This document shows, in pieces, positions 3,201 through 44,640 of a DNA stretch of 60,564 nucleotides (within the stretch, counting starts at the first letter, position 1; each line of letters begins with the position of its first letter). This stretch comes from Pseudomonadota bacterium. Its GTDB lineage: Bacteria; Pseudomonadota; Alphaproteobacteria; Puniceispirillales; Marisalimonadaceae. The translations under genes and the position numbers were made by a program. Under the pieces are notes generated by a model that saw only the letters and a list, made by a program, of their open reading frames with translations, was not told the DNA's origin and made no database searches. The DNA lies in NCBI GenBank assembly GCA_028382005.1, contig JAOESH010000010.1, forward strand, positions 1 to 60,564. Direction: 5' to 3'.

Positions 3201-3253
3201 TTATTTAGCCACTTTACATATACTTAAAATAAAAATTATTGTAGTATTTTATC

Positions 3254-5256: not shown

Positions 5257-5271
5257 AAAATCAAACTACTT

Positions 5272-6447: not shown

Positions 6448-7139
6448 TAATCATTCATGCACATAGATACTATTTTTAAATCAAATTCACAATCAATATC
6501 ATAAGATCTTTCAACAGGCATTTCATAAAATAAAGTACTTTCGTAAAAGAGTTTTTCACTATTCATAATAGCTTCTCTAGACCATATATATATACTTGCA
6601 TTCATATCATAACAATTAGGCGTGTCCTGTCTTCTAGTAATTTGCTTATCAGGACTGTTGACCAATGAAGCATATTTTTTATTTTTTATTTTTATCATAT
6701 TAAAATACGGTGACCTTCTAGAAATACATCCCGTTATTAAATTAGTCGCATTATTATTATCAAAGAGTTTAATACTATTTTTTAAATCATCCATTGATCT
6801 TAGTGGAGAAGTTACATCTAAATCTACTATATATTCATACTGTTTATTTGATATATCCTCACTCTTTATCCAACAATGCCTTATTGCAGGTATTTTAGGA
6901 GAAATGTCTTTAGAAAATTTTTTTGGTCTTTTAATATTTATAGTTGATCCAAAGCTTGCAGCAATATCTAAAATTTTTTGACTGTCTGAACTTACAGCAA
7001 TGTCATCAAAATAATTACTTTTTTTTGCTAGTTCTATTGAATATGCTATTAAGGGTTTACCATTTATTAAGATTATATTTTTGTTGGGAACACCTTGCGA
7101 TCCACCTCTTGCGCATATTGTACATAATCTTGATTTCAT
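6447..7139 (-). CDS. neuA: CMP-nonulosonic acid (N-acylneuraminate) cytidylyltransferase
   Basis: The core opens with LCTICARGGSQGVPNKNI, the nucleotide-binding signature of CMP-sialic acid synthetases, followed by KPLIAYSIELAKKS, VSSDSQKI and YIVDLDVTSPLR. At 231 residues from the chosen start it is of usual length. An in-frame ATG at 7151 is four codons upstream and also possible; the open frame reaches 7277 but that extension has no family similarity and would overlap the divergent gene at 7199. It activates the NeuB product with CTP for transfer onto a glycan. It is the first gene of the neuA-neuC-PIG-L operon, with a promoter expected in the short divergent gap to 7199. Confidence 0.88.
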   Translation of the reverse strand: MKSRLCTICARGGSQGVPNKNIILINGKPLIAYSIELAKKSNYFDDIAVSSDSQKILDIAASFGSTINIKRPKKFSKDISPKIPAIRHCWIKSEDISNKQYEYIVDLDVTSPLRSMDDLKNSIKLFDNNNATNLITGCISRRSPYFNMIKIKNKKYASLVNSPDKQITRRQDTPNCYDMNASIYIWSREAIMNSEKLFYESTLFYEMPVERSYDIDCEFDLKIVSMCMND

Positions 7140-7198
7140 GTATATACTCATACTATTATTAAAATACAAAATAAAGCAAAAAATAGAATGATAAAACC

Positions 7199-17608: not shown

Positions 17609-17651
17609 TGAGCCCTGACCAAGGTTCGCTCCATAATATGCCATCCTTGAA

Positions 17652-17776
17652 CCCTGGTCCATGCTCCATGGACTACGGTCAATGGGCCCCTGAACATTGA
17701 CCAATGTTGAATAGGAAAAGGGTGCAGTAACGCCGGACCAGGGACTTTGTCTACTGTAGACAAGGTTGTAGACAAG
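17652..17776. repeat. Nested inverted repeats in a G+C-rich island
   Basis: Within 125 bases there are four perfect inverted repeats. A 9-bp outer pair is CCCTGGTCC at 17652-17660 with GGACCAGGG at 17735-17743. A 7-bp hairpin is GTCCATG/CATGGAC at 17657-17673 with a 3-base loop. An 8-bp hairpin is GGTCAATG/CATTGACC at 17677-17702. An 8-bp hairpin is TTGTCTAC/GTAGACAA at 17747-17763 with a single-base loop. GTAGACAAG is then repeated directly at 17756 and 17768. G+C is far above the surroundings. No coding potential is convincing on either strand. It could be a folded RNA, a recombination site or a remnant of a foreign element. Confidence 0.7.
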
Positions 17777-18114
17777 CTTTTTATCGTTGACGTACTCACT
17801 GTATTTGCTAAGCTATTAATATTGTTGGAGTTTAGACAAAACCATTGCTCTAGTAAGGCATCACACCTCTCTCAGAGCGCACTATTTCATGTGACCCAGT
17901 TGCTATAAGTATTTGATGTGTAAACATATTTTGTAATGTGTGCTTGGGGGGTAGACCAAATGGTAAACCATTTTGTGTTTACAAAATCTTCTTACTTTTA
18001 TAAATAACTTTTGCTCAATATAGAGTTTATTACAGTTTATCTATTATCAAAGTATTGCTTTGGATCTTAAAAACAATTATTAATATTAATTTTATAATCA
18101 TAAAGAGTTATTAA
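17777..18114. other. Intergenic gap before the acyltransferase gene, with a small palindrome
   Basis: No gene is visible. AAATGGT-aa-ACCATTT at 17958-17973 is a 7-bp hairpin. TGTAAACA near 17921 and TGTTTACA near 17976 form a wider 8-bp inverted pair around it. A string GGGGGG sits at about 17946. The hairpin could be a transcription stop or an operator for the acyltransferase gene. Confidence 0.35.
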
Positions 18115-23118: not shown

Positions 23119-23695
23119 ATTATTTATTTAAAGGTTATTGATCTATAATTTATTTTATACATAAATTTTTGAATACTTAATAGAATTAAATAATTCAAAT
23201 AAATTAATTAATAATTTAGTAGAAGTAACGTATTGATAATGCAGGGATCTAACCTAGTAAAAGAAAAATTTTACTTTGACGTTACTTTAATTAAAGCTTA
23301 TTATTTAGCCTTAATAAAAATCAACATATTTAGATTGTTTGATAACCAACTAAATTTAGATTTCTTATTCCAGTTTTTGCTTTAGCAAACCTTTTAATAA
23401 AATAGAATATAAAAACACTTTGAGTGCTGAGTATTCTTTGTAAAAATCAATTATATAAATATACAAACTATTGATTTATCTATATATATTTATATAATGG
23501 TTTATATATTCTTTTACCTCATAGTTAAGAATAAAGTTCTCGATCCTCTGTTATTATAAAATGTCCACATAAATCAAAAGCTTATAAGTCATAAAATAAC
23601 TGTTTTAGGCAAATATACTCTACCCATATTATTTTTAAAGAAACTTTAAGTGAAGTTATAGATTAGAAAAATAAACAATCCTTTTAATGAACAAG
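23119..23695. other. Gap upstream of the sugar operon with one compound inverted repeat
   Basis: No gene visible. AAGTAACGT (23223-23231) and ACGTTACTT (23279-23287) form a perfect 9-bp outer inverted repeat that encloses a second stem, AGTAAAA/TTTTACT with a 6-base loop near 23256-23275. This element lies about 100 bases upstream of the fcl start and could be an operator or a fold in a 5' leader. The segment 23659-23699 is described with the tRNA-linked repeat. Confidence 0.45.
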
Positions 23696-23891
23696 CCCCC
23701 TACCCAAATCAAGTCGATATTCAAAACCTTAAAGGGTACATAAAACTAGGTGGATATCACTGATACCAGAGAGTTTAAGAACAGACTTTAGAACTCATTA
23801 TACGAGGAGGAATAAGGGTTTGAGTGTGGTGAGAGTGACAAGACTCTAACTTGTTACCTCCAGATTAGGAATCTGGCGTTCTATCCAGATG
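23696..23891. repeat. tRNA-Arg(CCU)-linked repeat, copy A (decayed)
   Basis: Contains the same 3' flank as the intact tRNA locus at 34.9 kb (from CCCTACCCAAATC through ACATAAAACTAGGTGGATAT to TGAGTGTGGTGAGAG) and then the tRNA body on the minus strand (23827-23890). The T-loop has a mutation (TTCGAGT becomes TTAGAGT) and the 5' third of the tRNA is replaced by serine recombinase sequence at a shared CATCTGGA. Immediately left, 23659-23699 matches in reverse orientation the segment found at 34769-34809, so part of the repeat has been inverted. This is the most diverged of three copies. Confidence 0.8.
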
Positions 23892-24033
23892 GTGTAGAAG
23901 TATCAACTCCAGATTGATGAATATACAAATCATAACCTTAAGAATGTATCTCATTTAGAAACGATACTAGGTCTTGAATACTTTTTCCAAGTCTATCAAC
24001 TGACCAAACTAATATTGCATCAAAGTCTTCTCT
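23884..24033 (-). pseudogene. Serine recombinase relic (internal part of the catalytic domain)
   Basis: Minus-strand translation from 24033 reads REDFDAILVWSVDRLGKSIQ then DLVSFLNEIHS, a TAA at 23938-23940, then GYDLYIHQSGVDTSTPSG and a TAG at 23881-23883. The W-S-x-D-R-L-x-R/K-S and G-x-D-T-x-T-P-x-G motifs are characteristic of resolvase/invertase-type recombinases. The N-terminal nucleophile segment and the DNA-binding domain are absent. The last codons run into the tRNA copy A: the bases for P-S-G are also the tRNA D-arm, so the junction lies at a stretch shared by both genes. Confidence 0.75.
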
Positions 24034-24125
24034 TATAATATAAGATGATTAAGATTAATTTTTTTGATATAAGTCAATTTATAAGTTATATTTATTAAAG
24101 TATATTTAATAATCAATGGTAAACT

Positions 24126-25445
24126 ATGAAAATTCTTATGTTAGACGTCTATCCCCAAGTAAACTATAGAGTATGCAAAGATAACAATGGTGGGTTTGGA
24201 ACAGGAAATGATTTAGGCGATACATTTGTATCAAAAATATTAAAGTCTTATTTAAAGAAATCTGTTGATTTTCCTCCTCTATTCTTTGTTAGTGTAATGG
24301 GCCAATTAAGAGGAAATGGTAATGAAATAAAATATTCAAGAGAAATAAGTGATGAAAAATTTGATCTATGTGTCTTAGCTTCTTCAATTGTTGCTCATGA
24401 GACAGAGTTGGCAGCAGTTTCAAAACTAAAAGATTTAGGCATTCCCACTTTAGTAGTAGGTCCATTTGCAACATCAGTACCTGAACCATACATAAAAAAT
24501 GGAGGTAAAGTAGTTATTGGAGAACCTGAATTTTATTTTTTTGACTTTAAATTAAATAAAAGTGAAATTCAAAATTTACCAGATAAAATTGTATTTAATC
24601 ACTTCTTTTCATTAGATGATTTATATTACCCTGCTTGGGATTTAATCTTTCAATACAAAAAGCCAAAGTTTAATCTTTTATCCAAAGGTTATACTATTCC
24701 TATACAAGCAACAAGAGGCTGTCCTTATTCCTGTAGTTATTATTGTACTTATCCACTACAACAGGGGAAAAAACTTAGAACACGAAATACAGATGAAGTT
24801 TTAAAAGAAATGTTATTTTGGGAAAAAAAACTATCAGTAAGAAATTTTCAATTTAGAGATCCTGTTTTCACAATAAACAGAAAATATACTAATGAATTAT
24901 GTGATAAAATTATAAATTCTAATCATAAATTTAATTTAGTTGCTGAGTTTCACTTAAAAGATGTAGATTATGAATTAGCTTTAAAACTGAAAAAAGCTGG
25001 GCTAAAAATTGCTTTTGTAGGTATCGAATCCTCTTCGTCAGAGGTTCTTTTAAATGCAAAAAGAACTACAATAGCAAATGATCAACAAGCAAAAAAAATA
25101 TCATTGCTTGAAAAAGTTGGGATTAAAGTAAAAGCAATGTATATTTTTGGCCTACCAAATGATGATCAAACAACCATAATAAATACAATTAACTATGCGC
25201 TTAAGCTAAATACTTTTTTTGCTCAATTTAGCGTTTTTACTCCATATCCAGGAACACCAGCATATAATGATTATAAAGACAAACTAAATAATAATAATTA
25301 CGAGAAATATAATCAATGGAATTTAGTTTTTAAACATAAAAATTTATCTTCAAAAGAAATAAGAAAATTTTTAGGAGTAGCTTATTCAAAATATTATACT
25401 AATTTGAAATGGTTTTTAAAGCATAATATAAAATTACTAACATGA
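24126..25445 (+). CDS. B12-binding-domain radical SAM protein
   Basis: 439 residues. The first 150 resemble a cobalamin-binding Rossmann domain (LCVLASSIVAHETELAAVSK, IPTLVVGPFATSVPEPYI). The radical SAM core carries ATRGCPYSCSYYCTYPLQQG near residues 198-217; the cysteines are spaced C-x3-C-x3-C, one residue longer than the usual C-x3-C-x2-C. Later blocks FQFRDPVFT, GLKIAFVGIESSS and YIFGLPNDD fit the family. Such enzymes methylate or rearrange lipids, sugars or antibiotics; the target is unknown here. It starts the plus-strand set 24126-27370, where the following two genes overlap or abut it, so they probably act together on a polyprenyl-linked or sugar substrate. Confidence 0.82.
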   Translation: MKILMLDVYPQVNYRVCKDNNGGFGTGNDLGDTFVSKILKSYLKKSVDFPPLFFVSVMGQLRGNGNEIKYSREISDEKFDLCVLASSIVAHETELAAVSKLKDLGIPTLVVGPFATSVPEPYIKNGGKVVIGEPEFYFFDFKLNKSEIQNLPDKIVFNHFFSLDDLYYPAWDLIFQYKKPKFNLLSKGYTIPIQATRGCPYSCSYYCTYPLQQGKKLRTRNTDEVLKEMLFWEKKLSVRNFQFRDPVFTINRKYTNELCDKIINSNHKFNLVAEFHLKDVDYELALKLKKAGLKIAFVGIESSSSEVLLNAKRTTIANDQQAKKISLLEKVGIKVKAMYIFGLPNDDQTTIINTINYALKLNTFFAQFSVFTPYPGTPAYNDYKDKLNNNNYEKYNQWNLVFKHKNLSSKEIRKFLGVAYSKYYTNLKWFLKHNIKLLT

Positions 25446-26287
25446 AAATAGGAATATCTGGATCAAATGGATTTTTAGGGTCGTATTTAAATGAAGTTGT
25501 TCTTAAAAATGGGCACGAGTTAGAAAAAATAAGTTTTAGGATTAATCATAATAATAATAATATTTTACAAATATTTAAATATAATCTTAAAAAAATAGAA
25601 TCCTGTGATGTTGTAATTAATTGCTGTGCTGTCAAGAATCCTAAGAATAAGTATGATAAGTTTATTAATGCAAAATTACCAAAATTAATTCATAATTACA
25701 TACAAAAAAATAAGATAAATTGTAAGCTTGTGCATATAAGCACTTTAAATATCTTCTATCAATTCTTAGATGATGATTACACTGCTCAAAAAAGAATGGC
25801 AGAGAAATATCTAAATGAAAAAAATATATTAATTATTAGACCTAATCTGATTTGGGATTCTAATGGTAGTGGGGAAAGTTTAATTTTAAAAAAATTTCTG
25901 CTATTTCCTCTTCCATTTTATTTTATGATAAACCCAGGCAATATATATCGTCCTTTAGATCCGATTTCGCTAGCAAAATTTATTTTAATGAGCACTCAAA
26001 ATCCAAAATCACCAACTGAGTTAAATGTTTATGGAGAAAAAGTAATTTCTCTGTTTGAATTATTTAAAAATATGGCTTCTAAAATGCAAAAAATAATAGT
26101 CCCTATAAATCCATTTTTATTACTTTGGATTAATTTTATAACTGTTAAAAAAACGGGGGGGCTTTACACATTAATTCAACAAATAAATAGTTATGATAGA
26201 ACAGGTGATACTTTAGATATTCAAAATAAAGTTTTCTTAAAGTTTAACTTTCTTAATAAAGTCAATAACAAAGTCAGATACAAATAA
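25442..26287 (+). CDS. NAD-dependent epimerase/dehydratase (extended SDR)
   Basis: 281 residues starting KIGISGSNGFLGSYLNEVVL (cofactor binding), with VVINCCAVKNPKNKYDKF, VHISTLNIFYQ and a candidate catalytic pair in YTAQKRMAE (Tyr-x-x-x-Lys), then RPNLIWDSNG. The pattern fits sugar-nucleotide epimerases and reductases of the extended SDR class, with a short C-terminal domain. The ATG overlaps the stop of the radical SAM gene by four bases, and the GT2 gene starts at the next base after its stop, so all three form one operon. Confidence 0.8.
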   Translation: MKIGISGSNGFLGSYLNEVVLKNGHELEKISFRINHNNNNILQIFKYNLKKIESCDVVINCCAVKNPKNKYDKFINAKLPKLIHNYIQKNKINCKLVHISTLNIFYQFLDDDYTAQKRMAEKYLNEKNILIIRPNLIWDSNGSGESLILKKFLLFPLPFYFMINPGNIYRPLDPISLAKFILMSTQNPKSPTELNVYGEKVISLFELFKNMASKMQKIIVPINPFLLLWINFITVKKTGGLYTLIQQINSYDRTGDTLDIQNKVFLKFNFLNKVNNKVRYK

Positions 26288-27370
26288 ATGAAAACTATAA
26301 GTATATTAATACCGACCTATAATGAAGCATTGAACATTAAAATTTTAATAGATAGAATTTCACATTGTTTGAAAAAAATTGATTGGGAAATCATTTTTGT
26401 TGACGATAACTCTCCTGATAAAACATCTGAAAAAATAGAGAATTTGATCAAGACACAACCTAATATAAAGGTTATTAAAAGACTTAAAGAGCGAGGCCTT
26501 GCTGGTGCTGTTATAACTGGATTAAAATATTGTAAATTTGAAAATATTATAGTTATGGATGCTGACTTACAACACGACCCAATAAATATTCCAAAGCTTA
26601 TTAAAAAATTTGAAAAGGATGAAGCAACTATTGTCATTGCTTCGAGATACTTTCAGTCATCAACGACAGAAGATTTTCATTTCCTAAGAAAAATAGTAAG
26701 TAAATTAACAATTAAAATTTTTAATATAGTTTCATACAAAAAATTAACAGATCCAATGTCTGGTTTTTTCATAATTAAAAAAGATTTTTTTATAGATCTC
26801 TCAAAACAACTATCTAGAGATGGATATAAAATACTAGCTGATATAATTTTAAATGGACCAAAAACTATTACTGTAAGCGAAATTTCTTTGGGCTTTAAAA
26901 AAAGAAATGCTGGTCAAAGTAAAATGAATTTGAGAGTTTTATGGGACTTTTTGTTAATAATAGCTTACAGTTTATTAAAAAAGTATATCCCAAGAAAATA
27001 TCTATCTTACATTTTTGTAGGTTGTTTGGGATTGTTAACTCATTTAATTTTTTTGTATGTTTTTTATAAGTTATTGTTAATAAATTTTTTATTAAGTCAT
27101 ATTTTAGCAACATTTATAGCAATATTAATTAATTTTACATTGAATAATGTATTAACATTTTATAGCAAAAATTTAACAGGATTTAGATGGTTAATAGGAT
27201 TATTGAGTTATAATATTTTCTGCTCTTATGGAATTTTTATTAGTTATTCAATCACAAAAGCTTTGTCAGATTTAAATTTTTATTGGTTTTTAGCAGGAAC
27301 AATTGGAGCATTTACCGCGTCACTATGGAACTTTTCTATTTCAAAGTTTTTTGTATGGAAAGATAATTAG
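26288..27370 (+). CDS. Polyprenol-phosphate glycosyltransferase (GT2) fused to a GtrA-like membrane domain
   Basis: 360 residues. The N-terminal GT2 domain (about 1-225) has ISILIPTYNEALNIKILI, FVDDNSPDKT, MDADLQHDP and the DPMSGFF motif typical of dolichyl-phosphate mannose synthase-like enzymes. The C-terminal part (about 235-355) has four hydrophobic helices starting YLSYIFVGCLGLLTHLIFLY, matching GtrA-like flippase domains. Together they make a sugar-phosphate-polyprenol and help move it across the membrane for use by a GT-C transferase. A GT-C-like membrane protein follows 350 bases downstream. Confidence 0.88.
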   Translation: MKTISILIPTYNEALNIKILIDRISHCLKKIDWEIIFVDDNSPDKTSEKIENLIKTQPNIKVIKRLKERGLAGAVITGLKYCKFENIIVMDADLQHDPINIPKLIKKFEKDEATIVIASRYFQSSTTEDFHFLRKIVSKLTIKIFNIVSYKKLTDPMSGFFIIKKDFFIDLSKQLSRDGYKILADIILNGPKTITVSEISLGFKKRNAGQSKMNLRVLWDFLLIIAYSLLKKYIPRKYLSYIFVGCLGLLTHLIFLYVFYKLLLINFLLSHILATFIAILINFTLNNVLTFYSKNLTGFRWLIGLLSYNIFCSYGIFISYSITKALSDLNFYWFLAGTIGAFTASLWNFSISKFFVWKDN

Positions 27371-27722
27371 TTCACTTTAACTTATATCACTAGCTTAAAT
27401 TTCAGTTGTCTTAACCTATTTTTAAAAACTCTGAACAATTAGTAATTTTATCAGAATTTCAGATGATAAAGATACAAAAAAAGATAAGAAACAAACTAAA
27501 TAAATTATATAACTAATTAGATTTATGTTTCTGTATAGATAATATTATCGTGGTTTATATATTAGATTTTTATTGTAAGTTTATAGGTTGGAAGTCAATT
27601 TACCAAAAAAGCTCTTAAACTAAGGTATTTTGTAACAGTAATAGATAAAATTAAATATAGAAAAAAGAAATAAGTAAATTTAAGTAATTTATGATACTTA
27701 TTGAGATATTAAGGAAGTATAT
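27371..27722. other. AT-rich gap, no feature recognised
   Basis: 352 bases between the GT2 gene and the split membrane protein. I see no relic, tRNA, strong hairpin or repeat. A promoter for 27723 is possible. Confidence 0.4.
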
Positions 27723-28790
27723 ATGTTTATTAATTTTACTAAAAATGATTTCAAAATATTATTTTTATTCATACTTGCATCAGGTATTTTTGCAAGAATA
27801 TTTTTTTATTTATATTTCGGTAATGATTATTTAAATCTTAAAGGTTCTAAATCTTCGTTATTATATTTAGATGCAATTTTGAATCATTCATGGGAATTCT
27901 TAAAAAATTATCATTACAAACCTATTGGTTTAATTCTAAAAGATATTGTTATTATAAATTTCTTTGAAAATATTAGAGTAATTAATTTTTTACTAATCTC
28001 TTTTTTTGATGTTGTTGCAACTATATTATTAGCGAATATTTTATATATTTTTGGAGTTAAAAACAAATTAACGATTATTACTTGCTTTATTTTTTCTTTA
28101 AATTTAATAGGTTGGGAATATTGGAGAACAGGTAATCATTTTGATCATCTAAATGTGTTTATATTTAGTTTTTATATTTGGTCAATTACAAGATTCATTT
28201 TTAAAAAAAATAGCTTAAGTTATTTTTTTACTGGATTTTCATCAATTTTATTAATTTTGTTTTATTCTTTGGGTTACATAATTATTCCAATAATAACTTT
28301 ACTATTGCTTCTATTTGGAAGAATTAAATTTAAAATAAGTTTTTTTATATATGTAATTTTTCTGCCAGTATTAATTATATTTTTGGTATTATTTAAAAAC
28401 TTTGTTTCTGTTGGAGTTATTTCTTCTTCTTCACTTGGTGGCGCAAATACTTTACAATTTTCATCCTATTCAGAACCACATATTGATTCATTTGATGGCA
28501 ATACGATTATAAAAATGTCAAAAAACATTAAAATGAAAGAGTGGTGGAAATGGTGTCTGAAGCAATCATTCATTCATAACCCTAAAGCACATGTACAAGG
28601 TCTAATATTTGGTAAATGTTTTATTAAAGTAGGTAATAAAATAGATTTCACAGATTTAAAAGTAAAACTAAAATCACTTAACGAAACTAGATTATTGAGA
28701 ACCGTTGAGTTAGATGAAGAATTATTAAAGTATAAACCTTGGTATTTTTCCAATTCAAATACTTTAAATTTTAGTGTTAAATATATGTAA
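27723..28790 (+). CDS. Polytopic membrane protein, probable GT-C glycosyltransferase, N-terminal part (gene split by an in-frame stop)
   Basis: 355 residues with about eight hydrophobic helices, an early loop GNDYLNLKGSKSSLLYLDAI and FNLIGWEYWRTGNHFDHLNV, which look like the arrangement of PMT/ArnT-type GT-C transferases, but no catalytic motif is certain. The hydrophilic tail (from about residue 240) would be the periplasmic loop. It ends at a TAA at 28788-28790, and the next open frame (28797-29360) is in the same frame with further helices. I read this as one gene of about 545 codons with a nonsense mutation, or less likely as two proteins. It would use the polyprenyl sugar from the GT2 gene upstream. 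Confidence 0.55.
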   Translation: MFINFTKNDFKILFLFILASGIFARIFFYLYFGNDYLNLKGSKSSLLYLDAILNHSWEFLKNYHYKPIGLILKDIVIINFFENIRVINFLLISFFDVVATILLANILYIFGVKNKLTIITCFIFSLNLIGWEYWRTGNHFDHLNVFIFSFYIWSITRFIFKKNSLSYFFTGFSSILLILFYSLGYIIIPIITLLLLLFGRIKFKISFFIYVIFLPVLIIFLVLFKNFVSVGVISSSSLGGANTLQFSSYSEPHIDSFDGNTIIKMSKNIKMKEWWKWCLKQSFIHNPKAHVQGLIFGKCFIKVGNKIDFTDLKVKLKSLNETRLLRTVELDEELLKYKPWYFSNSNTLNFSVKYM

Positions 28791-28796
28791 GAAGGA

Positions 28797-29360
28797 ATGA
28801 AAATATGGAAATACTTTATATTAAACGAACCTATTAATTTCCTAAAAAGGAGCTATTGGTCCGCACGCTTATATTTTAAAGGTTTGTCATTTTTTACTAA
28901 TACTAAATATGAAGCTAATCATATGATAAATAGTAACATTATTAAGTTAGCTGCCTTAATAACATGTCCTTTGTTATTTTTAGGAGTTTTAAGTGCGTTT
29001 TCAAAAAGCTTTAAATTAATAAGTTTCTCAATAATTAACTTAACAAATATTGCAAATAGAAGTTTTTCATTACCAATTGAGAAGCAATCATCAATTTATA
29101 TTTGTTCTTTTTTATTTACTTTAACAAGCTTATTTTTGATTATTATTACTTATGGTGAAAATAGTAGAATGTTTTTAAGTGTAAGTGTCATTCCTTATTT
29201 ATTAGGAGTATTAAAAATTAATGATATAATTATTAATAATAGTATTAAAAAATCAACATTAATTTTAGTTTCACTATTTTTTATTATAAATATATTTTGC
29301 TTAATATTATATGATAAATTCTTTTCATTAGTCTATAACAATTTTATTAAATTTATTTAA
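28797..29360 (+). CDS. C-terminal part of the split membrane protein
   Basis: 187 residues in the same frame as the preceding gene after a single TAA. The start KIWKYFILNEPINFLKRSYW looks like a continuation of a loop, and four helices follow (for example LAALITCPLLFLGVL and YICSFLFTLTSLFLIII). The AAGGA just before the ATG is too close for a normal ribosome binding site. This supports a split gene instead of an independent one. Either the gene is inactive, or the halves reassemble. Confidence 0.5.
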   Translation: MKIWKYFILNEPINFLKRSYWSARLYFKGLSFFTNTKYEANHMINSNIIKLAALITCPLLFLGVLSAFSKSFKLISFSIINLTNIANRSFSLPIEKQSSIYICSFLFTLTSLFLIIITYGENSRMFLSVSVIPYLLGVLKINDIIINNSIKKSTLILVSLFFIINIFCLILYDKFFSLVYNNFIKFI

Positions 29361-29471
29361 AAATTTTGAACATTCAACTCAAAATAAATTTGAGTTATAA
29401 CGCTTCAACATAAATAATTTTGCTTGATAGAAACTTTCTATCACTTCTTTACTAAAGATAATCCATCTTTA

Positions 29472-29628
29472 ATGATGACATGGGATAGTAAAAGGTTACT
29501 TGATAGGATCTTTAATTATATGAAACAATCTCCAGACTTAAATTGGAATCTATAACTATCTTCTTAAACAATACTTTGTAGCTAAGAAATTGATACCTCA
29601 TCAGTCAAGGTTTTCTAACATTTATAAA
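29472..29628 (+). pseudogene. Short unassigned coding relic
   Basis: An ATG at 29472 opens MTWDSKRLLDRIFNYMKQSP and DLNWNL before a stop at 29553-29555. In the next frame the sequence continues YNYLLKQYFVAKKLIPHQSR and FSNIYKA, ending near 29628. The two pieces read like one small conserved protein after a frameshift, but I do not know the family. A GATAGAAA/TTTCTATC hairpin with a one-base loop lies just upstream near 29427. Confidence 0.3.
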
Positions 29629-29649
29629 GCATGATTTTAAGAGGCCTTC

Positions 29650-29853
29650 AGAACACCCTAAGTAATAGTATAGAGTGAAGAAACTGGGATTCCTCCATTT
29701 ATATATAGTTTGTGTTTTACAGAAACTTCACTCTTATTTTCATAGACTAATAAGACTATGGAACTATAAATTTAATAGTCTGGTAGTCTTTTAATTATAG
29801 AAATATTTGTAAAAATATTAGGTAAACTGTTCTTTACAGATATTATTTTAAAT
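29650..29853. repeat. Structured repeat D, copy 1
   Basis: About 200 bases match 32468-32678 in the same orientation, with one block of about 40 identical bases (29752-29791). Shared stems are AGAGTGAAG with CTTCACTCT, and AAGACTA with TAGTCTT enclosing GACTAT/ATAGTC. The loops and linkers have drifted while the stems are kept, which suggests a folded RNA or a small mobile sequence. No open frame spans both copies. Confidence 0.7.
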
Positions 29854-29991
29854 TGTTTGGGCTTGTTTCATATATCTTCCAACTTGTGATTGGATATTTT
29901 CTTTACCCAATTTATTGAGATATACCTCGTAGTTTGTATCTCTTTCTACTTTGTTATCTTTATTTCCCTTTATGACTAAGTTATCTTGCAT
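29848..29991 (-). CDS. Hypothetical small protein (47 aa)
   Basis: A 47-codon minus-strand frame that starts three bases after the stop of the 102-aa gene and runs to a TAA at 29848-29850. The composition (basic, with NYEVYLNKLGKENIQSQVGR) is protein-like and a weak GAGA precedes the ATG. I recognise no domain. It may be the third gene of the sugar dehydrogenase operon or a degraded end. Its last bases overlap the repeat D copy. Confidence 0.3.
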   Translation of the reverse strand: MQDNLVIKGNKDNKVERDTNYEVYLNKLGKENIQSQVGRYMKQAQTI

Positions 29992-29994
29992 TTC

Positions 29995-30303
29995 TCAAGA
30001 AGAATATTTCACTTTTTTATCTTTTTCTTCTCTTTGAAGTCTATTATCTAAATCAAGATTTTCATCTATTTTTCCAAAAAATTCTAAAAAGTAATTTCTC
30101 TTTTCATTTTTCTTTAACCAGATTACAACATCCCAAGCACTTCCAATATAACGAGCCTCATATATTTTTAAAAAATATCTCATTGCATCTATTTTAGATT
30201 TTGTAGTAAATAGTGGATATCTATGAATATATCCAATATTCTTAATAGAGAATAAGTCTAAAAAGTTCTCTTTCCTATAACTTGTTTTTAACTTTTTAAT
30301 CAA
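29995..30303 (-). CDS. Hypothetical protein (102 aa)
   Basis: 102 basic, aromatic-rich residues with no signal peptide. It contains NIGYIHRYPLFTTKSKIDAM, YEARYIGSAWDVVIWLKKNE and an acidic-basic tail. The ATG overlaps the stop of the upstream sugar dehydrogenase by four bases, which argues for a real, coupled gene. Conserved Arg/Trp pattern WDVVIW is notable. I do not recognise the family and assign no function. It should be produced with, and may assist or modify, the dehydrogenase. Confidence 0.5.
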   Translation of the reverse strand: MIKKLKTSYRKENFLDLFSIKNIGYIHRYPLFTTKSKIDAMRYFLKIYEARYIGSAWDVVIWLKKNEKRNYFLEFFGKIDENLDLDNRLQREEKDKKVKYSS

Positions 30304-31718
30304 AAATACTCTGGAGGGTCTAATTTCATTACTACAAGTTTTGGAGTGTTCTCAAGAGAAAGAAGTATACTGTCTGTATCTTTATCATATATTACATCTC
30401 TTACTCTTTCTTTAATATTAATTGTCTTAAACAAATTTGCTTTAGAGTAATTTTTATTCATATTAAAGAAAAACAATTTTCCAGCTCTCAATGAACCAGC
30501 TAGAAAAATATCATTTCCATCTTTGTCCTCACCTAAGTGTTCTATTTGTGAAATGCCAACAGAAGAAACCTTCGACCAATGAAACACAGGTTCTATAAAA
30601 CCATATTTCTTGTGTGATTTATATAAAGGAGATTCTTTTTTGAAAGTATTGTCATAATGTCGTCCATAGGAGGATATAGGCCATCCATAGTTATTACCTT
30701 TTTCAATAACATTTACTTCATCTCCCCCATAGGGACCATGTTCAGTTGAAACAATTTTATTTTTAGATTCGACATAAATCAAACCTTGAGGATTTCTATG
30801 ACCTTTAGAAAAAACAGAAAACTTTTTTGTAAAAATATTAATCTCAATAATTTTGCCAAACATCGAATTATCGTCCTGAGCAAGGGATCTTGCTCTGTAT
30901 TCACCAATTGAAAATAGTATTTTCTGGTTATTTATCTGAACAATTCTACCACCTGATTGTTGACCCCAAAACCAAGGTTTTATGCCTTTTCTTTCTCGCG
31001 AAATACATTCATCATAAGTAAAAAATTCTTCGAAAAACAAATAAGAAGTATTTAACTCTGCTGATATAATTGATGTATTATAACAATCCTTCCTAACTTC
31101 CTTATTATATGACAGAAATAGTTTGTTATTGATTATTTTACTATCCTTAATACTTATCTGACCAGATATTGGTATATTTTTAAAAATATCAAAATGATTT
31201 GGGTCTTTTATTAATTTACCTATATTATTTGGAATAAGAACTGGCTTAATTTTATCCTTATTTAAATTTTCTTTATCTATTTTTAATATTTGTCCTGTAC
31301 CTGAAACTAGATAAACAAATTCTCCTAAAATGCTTAAATAAAAAGAGGCCTTTTTAGATGATATGTAATTGTGAAAAGGAATTTTAAATGAAGTAACACC
31401 ATAAATATCTAATTTTCTTTTGGATCCCCAAATATCTAGTGTATTGTTTTTTATTTTTTCAATTTTTAAAATATTATTTTCTTGTTTTAAATGTCCTGTT
31501 TCTTTTTCTAACAAATCTATTTTTTTATCTAAATAATCTATTTTTTTCTTCATTTCAGGCAAGTAAAAAACAAAATCTTTCACGTCTTGTTTCAAAGTAG
31601 GAGACATATAGTATTTAATTTTTTTAACAACAAAATTATCAGGATTGTAATAAAGCAGAATTAATAAAATTGGAATCACAAGTATACTAAGTATTAAAAT
31701 CTTAACTTTTATCTTCAT
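30300..31718 (-). CDS. Membrane-anchored PQQ-type (glucose/sorbosone dehydrogenase-like) sugar dehydrogenase domain protein
   Basis: 472 residues from the chosen ATG, which has GGGAGATAAAATA upstream as ribosome binding site; an earlier ATG at 31754 lacks one. A transmembrane helix (about residues 5-23) is followed by a coiled coil (about 50-82, heptads LDKKIDLLEKETGHLKQEN), then a six-bladed beta-propeller. Propeller landmarks are FSKGHRNPQGLIY, VSTEHGPYGGDEVNVIEKGN, NYGWPISSYG and FHWSKVSSVGISQIE, as in Asd/Gdh-B-like sugar dehydrogenases. The enzyme would face the periplasm and oxidise a sugar or bind a glycan. No PQQ synthesis genes are seen here. Confidence 0.8.
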   Translation of the reverse strand: MKIKVKILILSILVIPILLILLYYNPDNFVVKKIKYYMSPTLKQDVKDFVFYLPEMKKKIDYLDKKIDLLEKETGHLKQENNILKIEKIKNNTLDIWGSKRKLDIYGVTSFKIPFHNYISSKKASFYLSILGEFVYLVSGTGQILKIDKENLNKDKIKPVLIPNNIGKLIKDPNHFDIFKNIPISGQISIKDSKIINNKLFLSYNKEVRKDCYNTSIISAELNTSYLFFEEFFTYDECISRERKGIKPWFWGQQSGGRIVQINNQKILFSIGEYRARSLAQDDNSMFGKIIEINIFTKKFSVFSKGHRNPQGLIYVESKNKIVSTEHGPYGGDEVNVIEKGNNYGWPISSYGRHYDNTFKKESPLYKSHKKYGFIEPVFHWSKVSSVGISQIEHLGEDKDGNDIFLAGSLRAGKLFFFNMNKNYSKANLFKTINIKERVRDVIYDKDTDSILLSLENTPKLVVMKLDPPEYF

Positions 31719-31850
31719 TATTTTATCTCCCAAAATATTTGCTCTAACTTTCAATAATTAGTAAAAATTGAATAAAGTTAAATATCCCATTATATGAGAT
31801 AAATTAATACAACTATAAGTATCGAATTGAAACTAAATATCGAAAAAAAT

Positions 31851-32115
31851 TTTCCTAGAGGGGGTTCTGTTCATTAAAAGGATTGTTTATATTTTAGTCT
31901 ACAATTACTCATCTAAGTTGGACTAAAATATACAGCCACCCCCACCCAAAACTGACACCTTTTTGTTTACTTAACAGGTACATAAAACTAGGTGGATATC
32001 TACTGATACCAGAGAGTTTAGGAACAGACTTTAGAACTCATTATATGAGGAGGAATATGGGTTTGAGTGTGGTGAGAGTGACAAGACTCGAACTTGTTAC
32101 CTCCAGATTAGGAAT
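31851..32115. repeat. tRNA-Arg(CCU)-linked repeat, copy B
   Basis: About 265 bases that match 34759-35024 almost without change, from TCCTAGAGGGGG through ACATAAAACTAGGTGGATAT to the tRNA 3' half (32070-32114, minus strand, including the encoded CCA, T-arm and the anticodon loop). The match stops exactly after TTAGGAA, the anticodon loop, and the sequence then turns into unrelated DNA. The half-tRNA cannot be functional. The break at the anticodon loop makes this look like the product of site-specific recombination inside the tRNA gene. Confidence 0.85.
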
Positions 32116-32203
32116 AACTTTCTCACTCCTCTTATTTCTAAAAATATCATTATAAATCAACTACTTACAACACTACTATTATCCATTTGAATCCAAATAA
32201 CTC

Positions 32204-32224
32204 TACACGTATTCTACACGTATT
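32204..32224. repeat. Tandem TACACGTATT pair, left copy
   Basis: TACACGTATT occurs at 32204-32213 and 32215-32224 with an 11-base step. The same pair occurs at 35126-35147, also next to a tRNA-Arg copy. It lies 26 bases before the recombinase relic's ATG. It may be a binding site for an integration or excision protein, or a promoter element of the recombinase. Confidence 0.6.
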
Positions 32225-32249
32225 GGGTTTAACAATTTAGAGGTAATTA

Positions 32250-32318
32250 ATGTCAAACAGATGTGTAATCTATACAAGACTTTCTGCATCTGACAAAGGA
32301 CAAACCACATTAAATTAA
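32250..32318 (+). pseudogene. Serine recombinase relic (N-terminal tip)
   Basis: ATG at 32250, preceded by the good ribosome binding site AGAGGT, opens RCVIYTRLSASDKGQTT and then hits TAA after 22 codons. The Y-T-R-L-S motif holds the catalytic Ser of resolvase/invertase-type recombinases. The rest of the catalytic domain is missing here, although an internal piece of such a gene survives at 23884-24033. The gene has been cut off right after its start, next to tRNA copy B. Confidence 0.75.
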
Positions 32319-32404
32319 TATCGATTATGATTTAATGGCTATAAATTTCAATAATATGTTTGATGTTCTAAAGTCCTCTGGAAATCACAATTTTAAAATT
32401 GGAG

Positions 32405-32475
32405 AAACCCTAGATTTTTTAGGGTTCAAAATCTTTGATATTGGGTGTTGTTTTAGTATGTACTAAAACAACACC
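32405..32475. repeat. Two adjacent hairpins, the second a perfect 15-bp palindrome
   Basis: AACCCTA/TAGGGTT gives a 7-bp stem near 32405-32427. Directly after it, GGTGTTGTTTTAGTA (32444-32458) and TACTAAAACAACACC (32461-32475) form a perfect 15-bp stem with a two-base loop. It abuts the second copy of repeat D. It may be an origin, a transcription stop or a recombination site. A short open frame crosses it (32335-32466, 43 codons) but shows no family. Confidence 0.75.
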
Positions 32476-32678
32476 TAAATAGTATTAAGAGTGAAGAATG
32501 GGATTAATCTCCATTTACATATAGTTTGTTCTTCACTCTTATTTTCCCAGACGATAAGACTATGGAACTATAAATTTAATAGTCTGGTAGTCTTATTATT
32601 TAAGAAAGAAATTATTCCCACGAGAATAATATTTAAAAATATTTGGGAAACTGTCCTTTACAGACATTATTTATAATT
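32468..32678. repeat. Structured repeat D, copy 2
   Basis: Matches 29650-29853. The first stem is longer here: AGAGTGAAGAA with TTCTTCACTCT, 11 bp. The second stem is ATAAGACTA with TAGTCTTAT and encloses GACTAT/ATAGTC. A third, TTCCCA/TGGGAA, is found only in this copy. Because the unpaired bases differ between copies while the stems hold or lengthen, the fold appears to be what is conserved. Confidence 0.72.
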
Positions 32679-32729
32679 CAGATCTTCCATTATTATTTTT
32701 TTAAAAGATAATATGGGACAGTTTTTTTT
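32648..32729 (+). terminator. Stem with T-run upstream of the secreted protein gene
   Basis: AAACTGTCC (32648-32656) pairs with GGACAGTTT (32716-32724), a perfect 9-bp stem with a long loop, followed by eight T on the plus strand. This could stop transcripts coming through repeat D, or act as an attenuator in the leader of the gene at 32771. The loop of about 59 bases is long for a simple terminator. Confidence 0.4.
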
Positions 32730-32770
32730 AAGACCATTGTAGTTAAAAATTTATTATGTAAGATAATTAA

Positions 32771-34735
32771 ATGAAAAACTTTGTGTTGATATTTCTTACC
32801 TTATTCTCGTTTCTAAGCTTCTCTAATTTAGCTTATGGAAGTGATATTAAATTGGAATGTGAATTTACAGATTATAGCAGGTCATCTTATAAGGAAAGAA
32901 TATCAAAATCATGGTTACCTTCAATACAAAATTTTACAGTAAAGGGAAACTATGTTGATGCTTCATATTATAGATTAAGTAATGGAAGAATAGAAGTAAA
33001 CAACGATAAAAGAATAAGTTGGTCATATAAAAATTTAAAATTTAACAATAAAAATGGGCAGAAAAGAACACTTAAATATAAATTCATATATTTTAAAACT
33101 AATAATAAAATTGTTGCAGATATAATTTTCACTGGTTATAGAAATCACACTGACATTATGGGTACTTGTAGTGAAAATATTTCAAAAGTTTCTACACCTT
33201 TAGAACATGATCTATCAGATATGAATGAAATATCTCTTTGTGTGCTAGCTGCAGATAAAGGAAAATGGTCTTCGTCTAATTTACATTCTAATCATATAAA
33301 AGAAGCAAAACGTCGTGGACTAACATGTGGAGTTAAAGAGACTACACAAGATAAAACTAAGGTTAATAAAAAGAATAGTTTTAGTCCATATAGTCTACTA
33401 CCTGACAAACGTATATGTGATGAAGTAACATCTGATGCAAAACCCGAAGACAAATATTCATATGTAATAGAAGCAAAAGAACGTGGATTAACGTGTGGTG
33501 TTGTAAACACTGAAAAAGAAAATAGACTTAAACTAGAACAAGAGAAGATTAACAAGAAAGCAAAAGTTGAAGAAAAAAATATAAAAAAATCTGAAATACG
33601 AATTTCAGAAAAAGAGAGTAAAGATCTACTCTTTAACATTAAATCTTATGCAGTCATCAATAAAGATGATCTCGATCCATTAAAATTAGGTTTGCTGTTT
33701 ATGAATCTTAAAAAATCTAGTTCTGATGGTTGGAATGAAGAAACATTAAATAACTATAATCTTTTAAAAACTTTTGTTTATTCATCACAAAAATTTCAAT
33801 CTTTTGTTGAAAAAATTAAAACGGATAAATTAAATAAAAAGAATGCTGAGATAAAAAGATTAACAAAAATATTACAAAAGGATTTAGATAGTCTTAAAAC
33901 ATTTATTAGCGTTAACCTTGGTTCTGATAAATCATTAGAAGCACTTACTTTAGCTGATGAATTAAATAAAGTTATAAAAACTAAGGACTATAAACTACTT
34001 TATAATCTACACAATAAACTGAAAGTTTGGAAATCTGATAATCTCGGATCTGAAAAGTCAGTGAATAAAGTAGATAACAAAAAAAATAAGAATATAAAAC
34101 CAAAGTTAAAAATAAATAAAAACTTATCCAATAAAGAAATTATAAGAAATGCTCTTAACAAAAATGAGAAAATGTTTTGCATGCATCCTAGGACAGACGG
34201 AATTTTATGGATTAAAGAAAATGGGAAAATTACAGCTGATCTTCCTGCAGGAGCAAGAACGTATATAATTAAAGACAAGGTAATAGAGGAAAATGTTTGG
34301 TTTGACCTAGAAGACCCCATAATGGGAATTGAAGTGCAATATTCAATTAGTTTTGGAGCAAAAAAAGTTATCTCAAATTATCAAAATCACAAAGATTTTT
34401 GGGAACGTATAGATTGTAAAACCCCAAATTCAAACGAAAGTCAAAAAAAATCAGACTTTGATCAATTTAATGAAATTGAAGATTTAGAAATATCGATGAC
34501 TTGTATAGACGATAATGGTAAAAAAATTATTGTTGGTAAAAAGGCTGATATTATTTATGAAGATAAAGATAAAGCCCCAATATTGGAAACTGATAAATCT
34601 GGTAAAAGATTCATTGTAAAAAGAGTATATGCCTCGAAACTAATAGGTAGAGATGTAAAAGGATTAATTGATTTTAAAAAGAAACGAAATTATGGAAATA
34701 TTAAAGATAAATCAGTTTTTGACAGATGTTATTAA
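32771..34735 (+). CDS. Large secreted protein with a duplicated C-x-EAK-RGL-CGV motif
   Basis: 654 residues with a clear signal peptide (hydrophobic stretch 4-22, cleavage near AYGS-D). After a 120-residue domain there are two related motifs of about 50 residues: one with a Cys near 158 ending IKEAKRRGLTCGV, the other with a Cys near 216 ending VIEAKERGLTCGV. This C-x(n)-EAK-RGL-CG pattern is seen in exported proteins of marine alphaproteobacteria; I do not know its function. A Lys/Glu-rich helical region (about 245-330, and 350-440) follows. The C-terminal part has Cys-containing beta-rich segments FCMHPRTDGILWIKENGKIT and IDDNGKKIIVGKKADIIYED. It is the only gene between tRNA copies B and C, so it is probably the cargo of the last insertion. 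Confidence 0.75.
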   Translation: MKNFVLIFLTLFSFLSFSNLAYGSDIKLECEFTDYSRSSYKERISKSWLPSIQNFTVKGNYVDASYYRLSNGRIEVNNDKRISWSYKNLKFNNKNGQKRTLKYKFIYFKTNNKIVADIIFTGYRNHTDIMGTCSENISKVSTPLEHDLSDMNEISLCVLAADKGKWSSSNLHSNHIKEAKRRGLTCGVKETTQDKTKVNKKNSFSPYSLLPDKRICDEVTSDAKPEDKYSYVIEAKERGLTCGVVNTEKENRLKLEQEKINKKAKVEEKNIKKSEIRISEKESKDLLFNIKSYAVINKDDLDPLKLGLLFMNLKKSSSDGWNEETLNNYNLLKTFVYSSQKFQSFVEKIKTDKLNKKNAEIKRLTKILQKDLDSLKTFISVNLGSDKSLEALTLADELNKVIKTKDYKLLYNLHNKLKVWKSDNLGSEKSVNKVDNKKNKNIKPKLKINKNLSNKEIIRNALNKNEKMFCMHPRTDGILWIKENGKITADLPAGARTYIIKDKVIEENVWFDLEDPIMGIEVQYSISFGAKKVISNYQNHKDFWERIDCKTPNSNESQKKSDFDQFNEIEDLEISMTCIDDNGKKIIVGKKADIIYEDKDKAPILETDKSGKRFIVKRVYASKLIGRDVKGLIDFKKKRNYGNIKDKSVFDRCY

Positions 34736-34750
34736 TTTTCAAAACACTAT

Positions 34751-34773
34751 ACCCCCTTTTTCCTAGAGGGGGT
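34751..34773. terminator. G+C-rich hairpin after the secreted protein gene
   Basis: ACCCCCT (34751-34757) pairs with AGGGGGT (34767-34773) around a 9-base loop, 16 bases after the stop. No T-tract follows. It may end transcription by stalling or mark the edge of the repeat copy C; copy B has only the right arm. Confidence 0.5.
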
Positions 34774-35024
34774 TCTGTTCATTAAAAGGATTGTTTATAT
34801 TTTAGTCTACAATTACTCATCTAAGTTGGACAAAAATATCACAGCCACCCCTACCCAAATCGAGTCGAATTTTGATGACTTAACAGGTACATAAAACTAG
34901 GTGGATATCTACTGATACCAGAGAGTTTAGGAACAGACTTTAGAACTCATTATATGAGGAGGAATATGGGTTTGAGTGTGGTGAGAGTGACAAGACTCGA
35001 ACTTGTTACCTCCAGATTAGGAAT
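34759..35024. repeat. tRNA-Arg(CCU)-linked repeat, copy C (at the intact tRNA)
   Basis: Reference copy of the repeat. From TCCTAGAGGGGG to the anticodon loop it is nearly identical to 31851-32115, and about 150 bases of it recur at 23735-23880. The part before 34979 is the 3' flank of the tRNA gene. It continues without a break into the full tRNA. Confidence 0.85.
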
Positions 35025-35055
35025 CTGGCGCTCTATCCAGATGAGCTACACCCCC
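34979..35055 (-). tRNA. tRNA-Arg (anticodon CCU), CCA encoded
   Basis: Minus strand. The acceptor stem GGGGGTG/CACTCTC pairs with two G-U wobbles. The D-arm is GCTC/GAGC, the anticodon stem is CCAGA/TCTGG around the loop TTCCTAA (anticodon CCU), the T-arm is ACAAG-TTCGAGT-CTTGT, and A-CCA follows at the 3' end (34979-34982). All standard features are present, so it should be functional. It reads the rare codon AGG. Fragments of this tRNA occur at 32.07, 23.83 and 35.24 kb, so the gene marks the insertion point of the island. Confidence 0.92.
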
Positions 35056-35125
35056 ACATCACATTTAACGTATATTCTATAATGGTTTAGATATCAATAT
35101 TATGGTTTAAAATAGGGTTAAATTA

Positions 35126-35147
35126 TACACGTATTTTTACACGTATT
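35126..35147. repeat. Tandem TACACGTATT pair, right copy
   Basis: TACACGTATT at 35126-35135 and 35138-35147 with a 12-base step, about 70 bases 5' of the tRNA gene in its own direction. The same pair lies at 32204-32224. A third partial CACG follows. It probably shares its origin or a binding protein with the left pair. Confidence 0.55.
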
Positions 35148-35233
35148 CTCCACGAGTGTTTTTTAGAACAAATCATACCTTGTAAGTCATTGATTTTATT
35201 GAATAATATTACCGAATCAGACCGAGAACTATG

Positions 35234-35272
35234 TTAGGAATCTTGCGCTCTATCCAGATGAGCTACGAGGCC
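35234..35272 (-). pseudogene. 5' half of a second tRNA-Arg(CCU)
   Basis: On the minus strand this begins with acceptor arm GGCCTCG, then TA, D-arm GCTC-n9-GAGC, anticodon 5' stem CAAGA and loop TTCCTAA, where the likeness ends. D-arm and loop are the same as in the intact tRNA but the acceptor differs. The 3' half is not found next to it. The cut lies at the anticodon loop, the same point where repeat copy B ends. Confidence 0.75.
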
Positions 35273-35406
35273 ACTATCTATTGTTAATATCATATAAATC
35301 TTTATTATCAATAACTAGATTATTCGATTAAATTAGGGTGATTATTGTAGTGACTTGTTTAAAAAAATTTATAATATAATTATTCAACTATTTAGGAATT
35401 AAACAA

Positions 35407-36327
35407 ATGAGTATTGATTTAGAACTTAATGATAAAGTGGCTATTGTAACTGGTGCAGGAGGTGGTATAGGTCGAGAAATAGCATTAGCTCTAGCTGCAG
35501 AAGGAGTATCCATAGTTGTAAACGATATAGGTGTTTCTTTAACTGGTGAAGGTGGATCTAATTCTCCAGCTGAAGAAACCACCGGTTTAATTACTCAAAA
35601 AGGAGGTAAAGCAGTAATTAGCAATGAGAGTGTTTCCTCTTGGGATAGTGCTCAGTTAATAATTAAAAAGGCAATAGATACCTTTGGAAAAATTGATATT
35701 GTTGTTAATAATGCAGGTATCTTAAGAGATACAATTTTTCATAAAATGGAACCATCTGACTGGGAAAGTGTTATTAACGTTCATTTAAATGGTGGTTTTT
35801 ATGTTAGCCGAGCCGCTGCTCCATATTTTCGTGAACAAAATTCAGGTTCATATGTTCATATGACTAGCACATCTGGTTTAATTGGTAATTTTGGGCAGGC
35901 TAATTATTCAGCTGCGAAACTAGGTATTGCCGGTTTATCAAAATCTATTGCATTAGATATGAGTAGATTTAATGTTAGATCAAATTGTATTGCTCCGTTT
36001 GCTTGGAGTAGAATGACAAACTCAATTCCTTCAACAACTGATGCTGAAAAAAAGAGAGTTGAAAGACTAAAAAAAATGACACCTGAAACTAACGCTCCTT
36101 TAGCTGTTTTCTTAGCTTCAGCTGCGGCAAAAGAAATTACTGGTCAGATATTCAGTGCAAGACTTAATGAGCTGTTTATATACAACCAAAACAGACCTAT
36201 AAAAAGCGTGCATTCTGATACAGGTTGGACCCCCCATCAAATAGCTGAGAGAGCCTATCCTTCACTTAAAAGCTCAATGACACCTAATGATAGGAGTGGT
36301 GATGTTTTTAGTTGGGATCCAATTTGA
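35407..36327 (+). CDS. SDR-family 3-hydroxyacyl-CoA dehydrogenase-like protein
   Basis: 306 residues: VAIVTGAGGGIGREIALALA (about residues 12-31), VVNDIG with a spacer rich in Gly, VVNNAGILRD, a catalytic Ser in TSTSGLIGNFG and the NYSAAKLGIAGL pair (Tyr-x-x-x-Lys). The longer loop after strand 2 and the C-terminal extension (RSGDVFSWDPI) match the 17-beta-HSD4/hydroxyacyl-CoA dehydrogenase branch, so it probably oxidises a 3-hydroxyacyl-CoA. It is the first core gene to the right of the tRNA-linked region. Its stop overlaps the convergent phosphatase gene by 20 bases. Confidence 0.82.
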   Translation: MSIDLELNDKVAIVTGAGGGIGREIALALAAEGVSIVVNDIGVSLTGEGGSNSPAEETTGLITQKGGKAVISNESVSSWDSAQLIIKKAIDTFGKIDIVVNNAGILRDTIFHKMEPSDWESVINVHLNGGFYVSRAAAPYFREQNSGSYVHMTSTSGLIGNFGQANYSAAKLGIAGLSKSIALDMSRFNVRSNCIAPFAWSRMTNSIPSTTDAEKKRVERLKKMTPETNAPLAVFLASAAAKEITGQIFSARLNELFIYNQNRPIKSVHSDTGWTPHQIAERAYPSLKSSMTPNDRSGDVFSWDPI

Positions 36328-44556: not shown

Positions 44557-44640
44557 TCAAATACCTAAATTTTGTATATTGTAACAATATTAAATTTACT
44601 GTAAATTTAATATAGAATTTTAATTATTATTGGATTTTCT

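Follow-up and report, generated by a model that had tools for sequence, protein, structure and literature searches.

How do marine bacteria with small genomes come to gather cargo genes beside a single tRNA gene, and by which kind of recombination? This question is raised by contig JAOESH010000010.1 of assembly GCA_028382005.1, a stretch of 60,564 nucleotides (in the following, the window) from a marine SAR116 bacterium (Puniceispirillales, Alphaproteobacteria). One tRNA gene, specifying tRNA-Arg(CCU), is present in the window, and parts of this gene recur together with flanking DNA at two further places, with cargo genes in between. The original prediction, made from the letters of the DNA alone, explained the arrangement by accretion of elements at the tRNA gene and noted traces of serine recombinases beside the copies. 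We propose that the region probably consists of integrative cargo elements, non-autonomous and stacked at tRNA-Arg(CCU), that recombined within seven nucleotides of the anticodon loop, TTCCTAA, and that the intact tRNA gene is not the native one but arrived with such an element.

The genome that contains the window (G000) falls into the same genus as genome G032. It looks like a metagenome bin, judging by its 65 contigs and a completeness of 80.7%, and it has to be kept in mind that repeats can mislead assembly and that most of the relatives' genomes are incomplete. Counts at the tRNA site refer to 27 loci, the window included, for which the neighboring gene of a short-chain dehydrogenase (SDR) was found among 40 genomes of the genus (the remainder was not fetched or lacks the stretch); order-wide motif counts refer to 136 genomes. 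The repeats are designated A (at 23.7 kb), B (at 32.0 kb) and C (at the intact tRNA), with C consisting of the tRNA gene T and its flank F. L and R denote the left and right ends of the putative elements. All coordinates are collected in Table 1.

Native and foreign tRNA-Arg(CCU) genes

In 22 of the 27 loci, a native-type tRNA-Arg(CCU) gene lies intact beside the SDR gene, and 153-170 bp separate its core from the start of the latter. The other five (G000, G003, G005, G032 and G067) feature a matching tRNA of another kind at a distance of 350-2435 bp from the SDR start. At four of the 27 loci this non-native gene is the sole tRNA-Arg(CCU) seen at the site, while the fifth, G032, also keeps a mutated native copy. 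The tRNA of G067 is of a third type, and in G003 a native 5' half, apparently mutated when judged by eye, is followed by a foreign tRNA of the type found in G005 and G032.

The window itself contains a fourth tRNA piece that had not been noticed in the original prediction, the 5' half of a native tRNA-Arg(CCU). Its identity with the 22 intact native copies is 94.7% before the core TTCCTAA and drops to 17% (ungapped) after it, indicating that the native gene is broken at the anticodon loop. T stands 178 bp further in than this break and has its own upstream region. The sequence of T (GGGGGTG...CACTCTCACCA) differs from that of the native gene (GGCCTCG...CGAGGTCACCA) in the acceptor and anticodon stems; the intact gene is thus a foreign one. 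Related foreign tRNA genes with homologous L upstream and homologous F downstream are present in G005 and G032. The repeated flank is therefore part of a module and represents element DNA, not the flank of the native tRNA for which it had been taken. An L motif is found in three of the 136 genomes of the order, namely G000, G005 and G032. Taken together, the L and F matches suggest that T resides inside an element.

It could be argued that T has just been regenerated by islands of the ordinary kind, that the native gene decayed once it had become redundant and that no element with a complete tRNA was ever involved. L contains a native-like 3' flank with an exact match of 17 nt (shuffle maximum 13 in 2000), mutated native copies occur in G032 and, judged by eye, in G003, and the native tRNAs of G007, G014, G017 and G022 have been regenerated with displaced halves also present. 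Still, we consider this explanation unlikely. In the window, the native 5' half is preserved right up to the core, beyond which the sequence is unrelated; L, which we had also considered as a decayed tRNA 3' half, is no more similar to that half than shuffled sequences are (fractions 0.60-0.81); and the left partners of L differ between G032 and G000, L being preceded in G032 by a right end rather than by a tRNA half.

Group I introns occur at the anticodon loop of some alphaproteobacterial tRNA-Arg(CCU) genes, and the position of the split in the native gene matches theirs. That such an intron divides the gene is nevertheless extremely improbable. Rfam yielded no intron match in 34700-35450 at E-values up to 5 and none in loci L029, L030 and L044 at gathering scores, and a native 3' exon was not found in the assembly.

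Displaced tRNA halves and element ends

The three repeats are well founded and all share one orientation. In self-comparison, B and C align over 268 columns (31850-32115 to 34758-35024; 95.5% identity, E 1.7e-117), A and C over 196 columns (23697-23891 to 34848-35043; 91.8%, E 3.8e-75) and A and B over 146 columns (95.2%, E 6e-60), all far beyond chance. The intact tRNA-Arg(CCU) beside copy C was recognized correctly in the original prediction and so was the cut of the middle copy at the anticodon loop, where B ends with one base more still matching. The replaced 5' end of the far copy was also described properly; its supposed T-loop mutations come down to one T-loop change plus one change in the D-stem. 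The flank repeated in B and C comprises about 220 bases and is longer than the roughly 150 bases stated. An increase of decay in steps with distance from the intact tRNA is not what we find, as B and C are identical for ~146 bases counted from the anticodon loop and all 16 differences between the two are located in a later block. The sole change within the tRNA 3' half among the copies resides in A. When G032 serves as outgroup, six columns have changed in A alone, nine in B alone, two in C alone, ten jointly in B and C and two jointly in A and C, while seven are unresolved. A retains the G032 state at the ten columns where B and C differ from it and part of the distance between A and C is thus not decay of A. 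The case for stepwise decay is therefore weak, with A worn and B cut but fresh.

Copy B is best read, from comparison with other junctions, as an integration junction, in which TTCCTAA is preceded by an element end resembling those found elsewhere. Displaced 3' halves starting at the anticodon loop are present in G000 (copy B), G022, G007, G014, G017 and G005 (two), and in G032 an R-like sequence is followed by the core and then by L, an R-core-L junction as expected from recombination at the core. In total, eight junctions in seven genomes share the position of TTCCTAA, with one base of the 7-mer changed in G017 and in the first junction of G005 (G005_1). By eye, the element end before the loop is recognizable at seven of the eight. 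The 22 bases preceding the loop exhibit a mean pairwise identity of 0.524 across the eight junctions (null mean 0.292, maximum 0.390; none of 5000 draws as high), compared to 0.425 for the next 22 bases outward. This identical breakpoint with alike preceding sequence renders it very unlikely that the copies originate from homologous or illegitimate duplication of the tRNA region or from repeat misassembly instead of site-specific integration, even though the joint of A at eight shared bases looks illegitimate and B and C could confuse the assembly of a metagenome.

Both cores in the window are accompanied by a paired repeat, AATACGTGTA, and this pair pattern occurs only twice in the 136 genomes, beside these very cores. 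At five of the eight junctions (G000, G022, G007, G014 and G032) the best repeat pair ~104-111 bp before the loop has a period of 11. Pairs of this kind point to sites of the arm type, as bound by a tyrosine integrase.

The layout of G005, with a host-like 5' half, core, L and T, followed further on by R, core and a host-like but decayed 3' half (73% over 45 bases), fits direct insertion of a tRNA-carrying element. The genomes G005 and G017 have a cassette in common whose identity is 89.2% over 1156 bp, compared to 80.8% over 983 bp for the adjoining host sequence; in this one comparison, the higher identity of the cassette suggests mobility. The cassette, located at the same tRNA in both genomes (L030:4209-5362, L036:1085-2233), contains a gene for a luciferase-like monooxygenase.

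Two courses of events appear conceivable for the window. In the one that we prefer, an element e1 carrying T and F would have disrupted the host tRNA and taken its place, and a second element e2 (32115-35016) would then have entered the anticodon loop of T. The 3' half and F brought along by e2 would have rebuilt T (now copy C) and the old half would have been displaced as copy B. Alternatively, e2 may span 32115-35233 (3119 bp) and carry T itself, with a short deletion occurring later. The alternative accounts for the presence of the same repeat pair at either end; the first course is preferred because it requires no deletion. Either way, the present tRNA would stem from mobile DNA and would still serve as landing site for the next element, and a tyrosine integrase would have acted in trans. 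It is possible, although we would not yet call it probable, that a non-phage element here cuts tRNA-Arg(CCU) and gives the host its only working copy, which the next element targets in turn, so that the tRNA is passed to the newest arrival and the stack becomes hard for the host to lose.

Accretion at the tRNA, with displaced 3' halves and cargo between the copies, is supported by the junctions and by empty sites with conserved backbone in relatives; such strains emerged when the locus was compared across relatives, a check recommended along with the original prediction. Repeats persisting at an empty site without change of cargo had been named as an observation that would contradict accretion. 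G032 comes close, because T and F are situated there ~2.2 kb before the backbone with little cargo (two small open reading frames (ORFs) of 94 and 107 aa were found between), but it has one copy and no repeat.

Several observations weigh against our explanation. L and F are known from three genomes only, and G003 and G067 have a differing tRNA yet no L match. The native 3' half was not found in the 80.7% complete G000 assembly, in which only B and C matched, with three mismatches. In G032, both ARAGORN and Rfam still recognize the full-length native gene, although mutated, as a tRNA (51.5 bits versus 62.6 for the foreign tRNA). The 3' half in B is of the T type and thus cannot be explained by a single insertion into the native gene. 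At the second junction of G005 (G005_2) the R end is not clear and fits poorly by eye. Taken singly, the repeat pairs are notable in two genomes only, with pairs as good occurring in 0.5% of random windows for G000 and in 2.9% for G007, while the other six of eight are matched in 11% to 88% of random windows and are hence not rarer than 3%. The islands of G003, G013, G066 and G067, which are bounded, showed no second 3' half. Finally, the Pfam scan, which covered 28 of the 37 island ORFs (the other nine are short or overlapping), revealed no integrase or recombinase aboard.

Table 1. Features of the tRNA-Arg(CCU) region (positions in the window)
Feature	Position	Strand	Basis or remark
Probable rest of the island, genes for sialic-acid-like and surface sugars	1-23696		Pfam; distant matches only at relatives' tRNA site
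Copy A, tRNA from D-arm onward plus flank, two changes in tRNA	23697-23891	-	Self-comparison
Serine recombinase gene fragment, joined to A at CATCTGGA	23884-24030	-	PF00239, E 7.5e-9
Segment 1, older cargo	23892-31849		Radical SAM, epimerase, GT2 and GtrA, glucose/sorbosone dehydrogenase, proteins without Pfam match
Flank F of copy B	31850-32069	-	Self-comparison
Copy B, displaced 3' half of the tRNA, core included (putative attR)	32070-32114	-	Repeat and junction comparison
Right end R of putative youngest element	32115-32136	-	Adjoins core; compared with seven other junctions
Paired repeat AATACGTGTA at right end	32204-32224	-	Period 11, 110 bp from core
22-codon ORF resembling serine recombinase N-terminus, beside R	32250-32318	+	Small custom set, L064 at 50% across 20 aa; Pfam without match
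Cargo protein, 654 aa, signal-like start (by eye)	32771-34735	+	Segment 2; no family match
Flank F following T	34758-34978	-	Repeated at B, shorter at A; G005 and G032 have homologous stretches
Intact foreign tRNA-Arg(CCU), T (copy C)	34979-35055	-	ARAGORN; Rfam 63.8 bits; sequence non-native
Left end L of putative tRNA-carrying element	35056-35233	-	Directly after core; common to G005 and G032
Paired repeat AATACGTGTA within L, candidate arm-type site of an integrase	35126-35147	-	Pair pattern search
Stranded 5' half of native tRNA-Arg(CCU)	35234-35272	-	Ends in 7-bp core TTCCTAA (35234-35240)

Recombinase genes, cargo and extent of the island

A serine recombinase as the integrase, the type of enzyme to which the original prediction had pointed, strikes us as decidedly doubtful. 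The traces, i.e. the fragment at A and the N-terminus-like ORF beside the R end, are short, whereas the 7-bp core in the anticodon loop and the repeat pairs fit a tyrosine integrase. Across 51 aa, the fragment shares 82% identity with a G014 enzyme, and it belongs to a type of ~200 aa that is present in G003, G009, G014 and G023; in the window's own genome, PF00239 is found at A only. No tRNA gene was detected near serine recombinases in any of eight loci scanned, among them the ~3.4-kb loci of the four nearest relatives of the fragment. Moreover, A continues across the anticodon loop; its joint with the recombinase lies at the D-arm, over eight shared bases (CATCTGGA), and not at the core. 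According to the Islander paper (PMC4383910), integrases known to target tRNA genes are all of the tyrosine type, and serine integrases doing so are not known.

Judged by its sequence, A is a rearranged remnant devoid of an anticodon-loop junction. Segment 1 is thus not one cleanly bounded element and the boundary previously assigned to it at A does not hold. A stretch of 46 bp beside A (23656-23701) reproduces part of F (34767-34812) in inverted form (87%).

The genome of the SAR116 bacterium yields five tyrosine integrase matches and, among the matches listed, contigs C4, C12 and C21 are represented. One match, L060 (G000:C21:4126-5248), contains one stop codon and lies ~600 bp from a gene for tRNA-Arg(ACG). 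Integrase matches of ~334 aa are situated similarly close to tRNA-like hits in G008, G009 and G022. An autonomous relative of the elements was detected neither in viral contigs, in which four exact patterns were searched, nor in genome contigs, where one exact-pattern scan matched the G032 record only. Among phage records, 16 showed matches, all of them just the size of a tRNA (19-22% of the query); plasmids were not included in the search.

Segment 2 encodes a protein of 654 aa that has no match in Pfam, PADLOC or PHROGs, and partial matches with 26-44% identity exist in 13 of 46 genomes, its own included. PHROGs, run on eight proteins of the window, recognized a nucleotide-sugar epimerase, gave GtrB-like matches (O-antigen conversion; for the GT2 protein with GtrA domain of segment 1) and one more match of unknown function, and nothing else; the matched genes are a type of cargo that phages carry too. 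We also considered the cargo as a defence system and discarded this idea; of ten proteins, one gave a match, PDC-M51A (E 3.8e-10), over the radical SAM stretch at 24126-25445. Segments 1 and 2 share a noncoding repeat of ~190 bp that is about 75% identical (29664-29854 and 32478-32678; otherwise short matches, 37 genomes). Near-perfect palindromes are found at 32441-32478 and 44587-44613.

To the left of A, genes for NeuB, UDP-GlcNAc 2-epimerase, cytidylyltransferase, WbqC, aminotransferase and glycosyltransferase are present. The first three, at 856-7277, are suggestive of a pathway for a sialic-acid-like surface sugar. Positions 4010-8770 match contig C1 of G006 at 70%. When the ORFs left of A were compared with the fetched sites of relatives, only distant matches of 23-41% identity were obtained (G013, G018 and G007), a paralogue of the SDR aside. 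An interspersed repeat at 17641-17982 has matches in many genomes of the genus, in some of them in several copies.

In 11 of 22 loci examined, a tRNA-Ser(GGA) gene follows ~17-19 kb beyond tRNA-Arg(CCU) and the intervening sequence is conserved. In the window's genome, the conserved downstream backbone resides on another contig than the window, at the end of contig C1, and the island therefore probably runs off the window's left end. The lack of closer matches left of A likewise suggests that it extends that far. The clean element comprises ~3 kb and the whole island probably measures 35 kb or more, its far end probably lying beyond the window.

Comparison with known systems

The 7-bp core in the anticodon loop corresponds to the classical overlap of tyrosine integrases in tRNA genes, as stated in a review (PMC8371274) and in the Islander paper (PMC4383910). 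Islander assigns an anticodon-centered site to 2083 of 3919 islands and counts 125 tandems of two or more. Our region resembles these islands by the intact tRNA with a displaced 3' fragment in one orientation (C and B), by crossover in the anticodon loop, by tandem arrangement and by empty sites in relatives. It departs from them in that Islander islands, so described, need an integrase gene aboard, whereas none was found in the 28 of 37 ORFs scanned, and in the foreign origin of the intact tRNA.

Tycheposons, as described in PMC10872708, are cargo islands of 4-200 kbp in aquatic bacteria that are anchored at tRNA genes and have a tyrosine recombinase aboard. The tRNA is at the border in our case as well, but no tyrosine recombinase was found in the clean element, which has about 3 kb, against probably at least 35 kb for the whole island. 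Closer in taxonomic terms are phage-related sequences of Sinorhizobium meliloti, for which PMC11476347 reports substitution of a host tRNA gene by one resembling genes of unrelated Alphaproteobacteria. Substitution of a tRNA upon integration in the same bacterial class is common to both cases; the sequences in S. meliloti are phage-related, whereas we observe stacked cargo segments without a detected integrase. As far as the literature was seen, in part, it contains no islands of this kind for SAR116 and none described as integrase-less cargo islands, which is weak evidence.

Our findings suggest how marine bacteria with small genomes may collect surface-sugar and other cargo at one place by means of tiny elements that lack an integrase. 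If confirmed, core, L, R and repeat pairs such as AATACGTGTA or ATATGTGAAT would provide defined ends with which to seek further elements and the helper integrase.

The nearest published idea that we found is tRNA-dependent lysogeny (Guerrero-Bustamante and Hatfull, 2024; PMC10865867), described there for actinobacteriophages that have their own tyrosine integrase and for which the dependence was tested. As in that system, a short core lies within the tRNA gene, no functional tRNA is rebuilt at the junction (here at 35234-35272) and the element appears to bring a complete tRNA of the same isotype (here T, CCU); putative arm-type sites, located around attP in the phages, add to the likeness. 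The native 3' half expected at the other junction is not in our assembly, and G005 has the host-like, decayed one mentioned above. Unlike the phages, our region consists of stacked cargo, and neither integrase nor phage core genes were detected among the proteins scanned. The region may thus work like tRNA-dependent lysogeny but, as these genes were looked for and not found, we do not count it as a member. If confirmed, the phage idea that integration breaks a tRNA and supplies another would extend to islands.

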